From: Chitinophagaceae bacterium
Lineage (GTDB): Bacteria > Bacteroidota > Bacteroidia > Chitinophagales > Chitinophagaceae
Length of the DNA stretch: 53,777 bases
Assembly: GCA_025933935.1 (NCBI GenBank)
Contig: JAICYZ010000002.1
Coordinates: 1 to 53,777 of the forward strand
Direction of reading: 5' to 3'
The translations under genes and the position numbers were made by a program. Positions 22,385 through 44,408 of the stretch are shown in pieces; within the stretch, counting starts at the first letter, position 1; each line of letters opens with the position of its first letter. Under the pieces are notes generated by a model, which was given only the letters and a program-made list of their open reading frames with translations, did no database searches and had not been told where the DNA came from.

Positions 22385-22727
22385 CTAATGTGCTAATTAA
22401 TTAATGTGAAAATGTGAAGATTAAAAGATTTTTACAAAAAGATGGTGCAGAAGAATTTTGAAAAAAAAAGCACCTGCAGGAACGCCTTTGAATAGAATGC
22501 TACTAATCAGTTTTTAAAACAGCTTACATCATAACGGTCGTGTACAAACGAAAATAAAGATGATGAAAAATTGAAGCTTCAAAAGTAGAAAAATATCAAT
22601 TAAGGTAAGAGCTGGCGTTTATAAAAAGATAAATGAGGAAATAAGAAACGGTGTTATTTATTGATTTGCTGTAAAAGCAAGTCGATAAAGGGTACGCATG
22701 TAATATATAGAGTGTCAATACGGTCCG

Positions 22728-25044: not shown

Positions 25045-25140
25045 GAAAATTTTTCTTGTTAATAAAGCGGAACTGCTCAAGGGTTATATTTTTAATTTTT
25101 TCTCTAAAGAATTATCATTATTTGTTTGTTTGTTGCAGAC

Positions 25141-39951: not shown

Positions 39952-40007
39952 GCTGCAAAGGAAAGAATTTATCGAGTTATTTACGGTTTTTGAAAAATGA
40001 GCACGGC

Positions 40008-40023
40008 AGCAAACAAACAAATA
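40008..40023 (-). repeat. Intergenic 16-mer motif, one-mismatch copy
   Basis: On the minus strand TATTTGTTTGTTTGCT, one mismatch from the exact 16-mer, between the histidine kinase and queA genes and oriented towards queA, 56 bp before its ATG. Confidence 0.5.
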
Positions 40024-40040
40024 ACCTCAATTCTTATTTA

Positions 40041-42377: not shown

Positions 42378-43334
42378 TTGCTTTATAATCTATTCTTAAT
42401 TCCATCCAGGATTGCATTGTATTTTTATTGCCGCAGGATTATAATTAACAATAGATCAATATTGCGCGAGCAAGGGCCGTTATTGATTGCAGCCAATCAT
42501 CCGAATTCTTTTTTAGATGCCATAATTGTTGGCTCGCTTTTTAAATCGCCGGTTTATTCGCTGGCACGCGGCGATGCTTTTGCAGGTAAATTTATTACAA
42601 AAATTCTTCGGTCATTCAACATGCTTCCGATTTATCGCGTAAGTGAAGGAGTAGAAAACCTGGAGTATAATTACACGACTTTCGATGCATGTGAACAATT
42701 GTTTAAAGCAAATAAAATCGTTTTGATTTTCAGTGAAGGCAGGTGTATCAATGAATGGCATCTTCGTCCTTTAAAAAAAGGAACCGCACGTCTCGCGTTC
42801 AATGCCTGGGAAAACAACATTCCTTTAAAAGTTCTGCCCCTTGGAATCAATTATAGTTCTTTTAGATTTTTTGGGAAAAATGTGTTTCTGAATTTTGGTA
42901 ACATTATTTCAAAAAACGATTTCTCCGATAAAATTTTTTCTGGAAGACATCTGAAGAAGTTTAATGAAAAATTGAATGAACAATTGGAAAATCTTGTTGT
43001 TGAAATTGATAAAAATGACTGGCAAAAAGCCAAAGATTATTTCCGGATACACCAGCCTTTATTGAAAAAAATTCTTTTATTTATTCCGGCAATTATTGGT
43101 TTTGCTATCAGCGCTCCATTATATTTTATTCTTCATTTAGTAATAAAAAAACGTGCTCACGATCATTATGATTCTGTAATGACCGGATTGTTATTTTTCT
43201 GTTATCCTTTATACATTTTTGCGATAACATTGATTGCATTTTTTATAACAAAAAACGTTTACGCTTTTCTATTGCTAATTATGCTGCCGGTTTGTGCATG
43301 GAGTTATTTACAACTTAAGAAGCAGATCCGGTAA
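42378..43334 (+). CDS. PlsC-like acyltransferase
   Basis: A 318-aa membrane-associated acyltransferase. The catalytic NHPNSFLDA box (Hx4D) is near residue 40 and the substrate box FSEGRC near residue 118. Two or more membrane helices close the C-terminus (LLFIPAIIGFAISAPLYFIL and the following). It probably acylates lysophospholipid, glycerol phosphate or another lipid. The start is a TTG at 42378: an in-frame stop lies 9 bp upstream, and the first ATG falls well inside the fold. The 495-bp gap that follows holds a candidate ncRNA and no obvious gene. Confidence 0.85.
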   Translation: MLYNLFLIPSRIALYFYCRRIIINNRSILREQGPLLIAANHPNSFLDAIIVGSLFKSPVYSLARGDAFAGKFITKILRSFNMLPIYRVSEGVENLEYNYTTFDACEQLFKANKIVLIFSEGRCINEWHLRPLKKGTARLAFNAWENNIPLKVLPLGINYSSFRFFGKNVFLNFGNIISKNDFSDKIFSGRHLKKFNEKLNEQLENLVVEIDKNDWQKAKDYFRIHQPLLKKILLFIPAIIGFAISAPLYFILHLVIKKRAHDHYDSVMTGLLFFCYPLYIFAITLIAFFITKNVYAFLLLIMLPVCAWSYLQLKKQIR

Positions 43335-43418
43335 TAACTCGTTGGTCAAATCCTCCTTTTGATTGTGTTGCAATATTGTGGATTCAGCAAAAAAATAAAT
43401 AAGTGCAATTTGTATTTT

Positions 43419-43448
43419 AAAAAAAAAGGGCAACATTACATGTTGCCC
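43419..43448 (-). terminator. Rho-independent terminator of a minus-strand transcript
   Basis: GGGCAACAT and ATGTTGCCC flank TAC, a perfect 9-bp stem. On the minus strand it is followed by nine T residues. No minus-strand protein gene ends here: the nearest, at 44418, is almost 1 kb away and has its own neighbours. It therefore points to an unannotated RNA. Confidence 0.75.
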
Positions 43449-43607
43449 AAGTTCGTAGGTTCTTCAATAATAATTTAAAACGGGTAATCTTTCAACAAAT
43501 ATTGAAACGATATATCATAAATATTGGAAATAGACGGTAGGTTATTGGGGTAAAAATTCTTTTTTCAATTACCTTTTGTCTCTTCGTTAGAACAAAAATG
43601 TTGCCAA
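43428..43607 (-). ncRNA. Candidate structured ncRNA
   Basis: A roughly 180-nt minus-strand region ends in a textbook terminator (43419-43448). Its proposed 5' end carries GGCAACAT (43605-43598), which is the same sequence as the first terminator arm and so complementary to the second, giving a possible long closing stem or alternative fold. Next to it UUUUGUUCU and AGAGACAAAA form a hairpin. CAAUAA and UUAUUG, and CCCAA and UUGGG, offer further long-range pairs. The size and the closing pairing recall 6S RNA, but I cannot match a known family. The 5' end is uncertain. Confidence 0.4.
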
Positions 43608-43686
43608 AAACTAAATTTCACACTGTTTATTGATTATAAAATTAATATAGTATAATTTTTATTTTAATTTACCCTAAAAACGCTTT

Positions 43687-43713
43687 AAAGACTACTTTAA
43701 ACAGTCTTTTTTG
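43687..43713 (+). terminator. Weak hairpin and T-run in the 495-bp gap
   Basis: AAAGACT and AGTCTTT (loop ACTTTAAAC) followed by a T-run give a plus-strand terminator-like hairpin. It is AT-rich and no plus-strand gene ends nearby. Confidence 0.25.
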
Positions 43714-43913: not shown

Positions 43914-44408
43914 ATGAAAACATGCTTTCTGTTTTTATCTGCTTTGTTTTTCTCTTTCATTGGTACTGCTCAGCTTCATACAACTCCAAAATGCCCTGAT
44001 TTTAGTATTGATATTTTAAAGGGAAGCGTTAACGGAATTATATATCCAAATGCCACTGTCGATCAGATCAGAGCAAATTTGCCTTGTTTTACCGGCTTCC
44101 AGGAAGAAGGTGATTCTTCCAAATGCGGCGGAGGTGTTTATTATAAAGACAAAGGTGTTTCATTTTATACAAGACGTGATTACATAGAAATAGGTCCCGA
44201 TTTTAAAGGAAAATTAAGTCTTCCACTCATGCACGCTTCCAGGAATAACTTATTCCAATGGCTCGGTGCACCGCAAATGAAAGATAAAAACTGGGATGCT
44301 TTTCAAACCTCTTACGGAGTTTTAATTCTGTATTATGACCAGGCAGACAAGGTAAATAAAATACAGTTTAGCACAGAAAAAGCAAACACAATCCGCTTAT
44401 GTGATTAA
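43914..44408 (+). CDS. Secreted protein of unknown function
   Basis: A 164-aa protein with a signal peptide (MKTCFLFLSALFFSFIGTAQ). The mature chain has several cysteines (KCPDF, LPCFTGF, KCGGG and the C-terminal RLCD), so disulfides are likely. It is otherwise mixed polar, with no recognised domain. The ORF track begins 28 codons earlier in sequence that does not look coding. The stop codon is inside the stem of a strong terminator. Likely periplasmic. Confidence 0.6.
   Translation: MKTCFLFLSALFFSFIGTAQLHTTPKCPDFSIDILKGSVNGIIYPNATVDQIRANLPCFTGFQEEGDSSKCGGGVYYKDKGVSFYTRRDYIEIGPDFKGKLSLPLMHASRNNLFQWLGAPQMKDKNWDAFQTSYGVLILYYDQADKVNKIQFSTEKANTIRLCD

Follow-up and report, generated by a model that had tools for sequence, protein, structure and literature searches.

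On the evidence of its sequence and of comparison with relatives, the gap between an acyltransferase gene and a gene for a predicted secreted protein holds a real small-RNA gene, neither 6S RNA nor attenuator. The gap lies in the window (the whole 53,777-nucleotide stretch analysed), which comes from a genome of the genus Ginsengibacter (Chitinophagaceae), numbered G000 here. The element is probably a free-standing small regulatory RNA gene with a sigma-54-type promoter, whose conserved core, in a presumably open body, would pair with target mRNAs in trans. Its family, present in at least ten related soil bacteria, is without a match in Rfam 15 and appears undescribed; the literature searched contained nothing on sRNAs in Ginsengibacter. 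The kind of element is already known; the RNA family appears to be new.

RNA polymerase with RpoN would transcribe this gene once an enhancer-binding protein, responding to some form of stress or to a surface condition, has activated it. The product, about 150 nt long and with no reading frame conserved among copies, would be ended by its own intrinsic terminator. Its body would remain largely open, and a conserved core would pair with target mRNAs in trans, altering their translation or stability. A broader proposal is offered tentatively: a genus-wide sRNA family might serve as the post-transcriptional arm of a regulon that sigma-54 governs in response to stress or surfaces, with promoter and core invariant and with body length and neighbourhood changed.

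Layout of the locus

At the sequence level the element is an independent transcription unit, with a promoter, an intrinsic terminator and no conserved ORF (Table 1). On the minus strand TTTTTGGCAACATTTTTGT is followed, after about 140 nt, by a perfect 9-bp stem of GGGCAACAT (43448-43440) and ATGTTGCCC (43436-43428) around the loop GTA, and then by nine T (43427-43419). From promoter and terminator, the RNA is predicted to be roughly 150-160 nt long in the window; its length varies across relatives, from about 120 to 160 nt. The sequence features named in a preliminary description, namely the perfect minus-strand terminator, its nine U and a complementary GGCAACAT, are present as described. The terminator indeed ends no ORF of protein-gene size on the minus strand. 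The gap, given as 495 bp, has that length only with GTG 43830 as the start of the right-hand gene. The start is probably ATG 43914, which is signal-peptide-like and conserved in G014, and the gap would therefore be about 579 bp.

Table 1. Features of the small RNA gene and its flanks (window coordinates)
Feature	Position	Strand	Remarks
Acyltransferase gene (PF01553)	42378..43334	+	left flank of RNA gene, convergent
Small RNA gene	43419..43580	-	predicted start ~12 nt past the -12 element; end in U run
Intrinsic terminator	43419..43448	-	9-bp stem, 3-nt loop, nine T; sequence, folding, covariation
Most conserved RNA segment, GATTACCCGTTTTAAATTATTATTGAAGAACCTA	43456..43489	-	proposed unpaired seed; common to G014, G018, G006
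Conserved CCAATAACC block	43540..43548	-	alignment A3; potential partner of UUAUUG in the core
Possible 5' hairpin, GGUAA...UUACC	43549..43573	-	read from sequence; sequence differs per relative
Sigma-54-type promoter, TTTTTGGCAACATTTTTGT	43592..43610	-	GG 43605-43604 (-24); G 43593 and T 43592 (-13/-12)
Predicted secreted protein gene, no Pfam match	43914..44408	+	right flank of RNA gene, divergent

A predicted sigma-54-type promoter

The hallmark of sigma-54 promoters is GG-N10-G[C], and the pattern here is TTTTTGGCA-N3-TTTT-[TG]-G[C]. All nine aligned copies keep TGGCA-N3-TTTT-N-G with the GG-N10-G spacing, the invariant columns being T-1, GGCA, four T and a G that lies twelve positions beyond the first G. 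A C follows the -13 G in seven of the nine; the window has T there (GT, not GC, at -13/-12) and G002 has G. The tenth copy, that of G008, reads GTGGCACTATATTTGA, with GG-N10-G and then A. Mean pairwise identity among the nine aligned copies is 0.83 over the 17-nt promoter block, as against 0.46 in the preceding 20 nt, 0.36 further upstream and 0.42 just downstream; the block is conserved although it is absent from the covariance model (R1) used in the searches. RpoN is encoded in the window genome (TIGR02395, G000:C299:6057-7499, E 1.2e-130), and a test of 150 genomes of the family detected it in every one.

The strict motif TTGGCANNNNTTTTGC was not enriched in seven genomes of the genus, with 9 matches (three of them the RNA gene) versus 8 in the reversed control. 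It occurs about once per genome, and its other occurrences lie mostly within genes. A wider sigma-54 regulon is neither shown nor excluded by this count. The same small RNA gene could instead be read by another sigma factor, ECF or variant sigma-A, the GG-N10-GC spacing then being coincidental. Absence of genome-wide enrichment would suit that reading, as would the T-rich TTTTTG, which looks like the last part of TAnnTTTG, the -7 box of Bacteroidota; however, most copies lack the TA of this box, and it is GGCA and a G at exact sigma-54 spacing that vary least, so that another sigma factor is unlikely.

No conserved upstream inverted repeat or activator site was recognised by eye across the aligned copies. 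The window has an inverted repeat, AAAGACT...AGTCTTT (43690-43712), which precedes the predicted RNA start by about 110-130 nt, a position suited to a sigma-54 activator site; it was not seen in relatives.

A probably open RNA body with a conserved core

Folding is concentrated in the terminator, with z = -3.9 against shuffles in the window copy and -3.9 to -4.9 over the eight full copies tested. Across eight relatives 96.4% of its stem is paired, and four pairs carry changes in both partners, where shuffling gives a mean of 1.0. The RNA body minus the terminator gave z of -1.1 to +1.0 versus shuffled sequence in all eight copies, with no excess structure, and when the first four copies were folded to a consensus, it contained zero pairs with two-sided change. 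The element had been put forward as a candidate structured non-coding RNA; a conserved non-coding RNA gene is indeed present in ten genomes, but its body has no fold beyond chance. The possible 5' hairpin is without statistical support, and some relatives fold hairpins of their own at this place. The CCAATAACC block is kept in most copies, and the helix CAAUAA:UUAUUG that it could form with the core is neither supported nor excluded by covariation because the pairing is nearly invariant.

The core reads ACTNCCC..TTATT.TTGAARRACC in most copies, and ACTCCCACTTTATTTTACATTATTGTTTTGAAAAACC and variants in G003, G016, G008 and G002. What is conserved is thus sequence in an unfolded stretch and not folding, which suggests that the RNA acts by base pairing in trans. 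CrcZ-type decoy RNAs act by sequestering a protein, and the open AU-rich body, with its conserved C-rich tract ACUCCC/ACUACC, might be taken for a decoy of this sort instead of an mRNA-pairing RNA; yet there is a single conserved core and there are no repeated motifs, and we regard sequestration as rather improbable.

The preliminary description saw in the same layout either a compact closed RNA such as 6S or an attenuator with two alternative folds, and neither survives. Both drew on GGCAACAT (43605-43598), which is the exact complement of the terminator 3' arm as stated. This supposed pairing arm is the -24 part of the sigma-54-type promoter and would therefore lie upstream of the transcript. 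Of the 8 Watson-Crick pairs of the long-range pairing, the best matches in relatives form 8, 6, 6, 6, 5, 5, 6 and 4, GGCA being retained but not the remainder of the arm. Conservation of the stems in relatives had been named as a check: the terminator stem is kept and covaries, whereas the long-range pairing is not kept.

A homologue of 6S RNA or 6S-Flavo (RF00013, RF01685) would be a closed long hairpin binding the housekeeping RNA polymerase. Besides the apparent closing pair of GGCAACAT with the terminator arm, which is not conserved and is located in the promoter, the likeness is one of length only: the Ginsengibacter RNA has no closing stem, paired ends or central bubble in its unstructured body, has a sigma-54-type promoter and is not family-wide. 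The Rfam covariance search that had been proposed gave nothing at gathering score in any family, only chance-level matches (E 0.4-2.5), and no 6S family matched even at E up to 10. RF01685 was not found in the genome, the same search being without a match in any control as well. Homology to 6S RNA is accordingly very improbable. Equally hard to sustain is an attenuator or riboswitch leader whose two alternative folds control a downstream gene. Sequence ahead of the terminator can pair with one arm, but this alternative pairing is not conserved, and the gene past the terminator is convergent in every readable neighbourhood (acyltransferase, ABC transporter ATPase, or a 255-aa protein and relatives), with no co-directional gene, so that an attenuator would have no gene to act on. 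That the transcript encodes a micropeptide is likewise highly unlikely, as the short ORFs, the longest of 29 codons (G014), include none conserved across copies; even G018 and G006, a close pair, disagree in the sequence, length and frame of theirs.

Distribution and gene neighbourhoods

Copies of the RNA gene were found in ten of the 20 Ginsengibacter genomes searched: G000, G014, G018, G006, G001, G003, G016 (Ginsengibacter hankyongi BR5-29), G002, G008 and G011. A DNA search over relatives placed the stretch in three genomes of the genus (G014, G018, G006), 73-85% conserved. The covariance model R1, built from these and the window copy with the promoter left out, added G001 (48 bits, E 1e-4). 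It misses G003, G016 and G002, and G008 is likewise without a match; these four copies were recognised from their synteny, promoter, core and terminator and not by the model. The G016 copy lies on contig 1 at about 39,960-39,820, with a predicted RNA of 110-130 nt. They and the G011 copy were found by reading the DNA downstream of phosphoglucomutase. The G011 copy is cut by the contig end, and all others consist of promoter, RNA and terminator.

The ten copies span three kinds of gene neighbourhood; eight stand downstream of phosphoglucomutase and two (window and G014) adjoin the acyltransferase gene. When the acyltransferase gap was compared in 80 genomes, the RNA was there only in the record of G014 (L019). 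In G000 and G014 another gene occupies the DNA downstream of phosphoglucomutase (L147, L148), and the RNA gene and its promoter therefore appear to have moved as a unit. Downstream of phosphoglucomutase there are zero copies in the branch G007, G009, G012 and G015 and in the outgroup G004, G005, G013 and G017. No copy was recognised in G019, and the anchor gene is missing in G010. Carriers, G008 not being counted among them, cluster in the phosphoglucomutase tree.

Covariance-model and pattern searches of about 380 further family genomes revealed no other true copy. A promoter-plus-core pattern matched in five of the 20 genus genomes, with zero reversed-control matches there, and outside the genus gave only two matches in a 399-genome sample, neither resembling the RNA. 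Model and pattern matches from outside the genus, together with weak extras in G013 and G018, were rejected as lying in coding frames or being bare terminators; the G411 match was judged from its printed sequence alone.

Relation to known small RNAs

Qrr1-5, GlmY, CrcZ and NrsZ are sigma-54-dependent sRNAs of Proteobacteria with known activator sites and targets. The Ginsengibacter element would work in the manner of these RNAs and of Rfp36 (below), and is like them in being an sRNA gene with a (predicted) -24/-12 promoter and an intrinsic terminator, but no sequence relation to the Proteobacterial RNAs was detected by Rfam. Within the Bacteroidota, one study describes Rfp36 of Flavobacterium psychrophilum, an sRNA with a mapped sigma-54 promoter and -24/-12 elements, and reports typical elements of this kind as motif SM4 (PMC9723704). 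Rfp36 is likewise a small non-coding RNA of a Bacteroidota with a -24/-12 promoter (predicted in the Ginsengibacter RNA), although its host belongs to a different class, Flavobacteriia. The genes dnaK, groES, clpB, lon and htpG belong to the sigma-54 regulon of Flavobacterium (PMC9723704). Rfp18 of Flavobacterium is also a genus-wide Bacteroidota sRNA, but strongly folded, unlike the unfolded body of the Ginsengibacter RNA (PMC9723704).

Little is charted of the small RNAs that Chitinophagaceae make, and few Bacteroidota species have had their sigma-54 mapped. Because G. hankyongi BR5-29 can be cultured, a defined RNA gene there whose promoter is constant would serve as a simple reporter of what activates sigma-54 in this group. 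It would also be a further case of an sRNA family marked by its promoter and not by its RNA fold, and overlooked by Rfam-type searches.

A dispersed motif in the region

A dispersed AT-rich motif, with a consensus of about AAATA-AAATT-CACTTATTT[AG]TTTNTTTGCTG, occurs in several, mostly intergenic copies in G000 and G014. Window copies lie at 43384-43411 and 40006-40031 (minus strand) and at 25110-25135 and 22654-22671 (plus strand), with others at L006-L010; the reversed control of the window has zero. One copy comes after the sRNA terminator.
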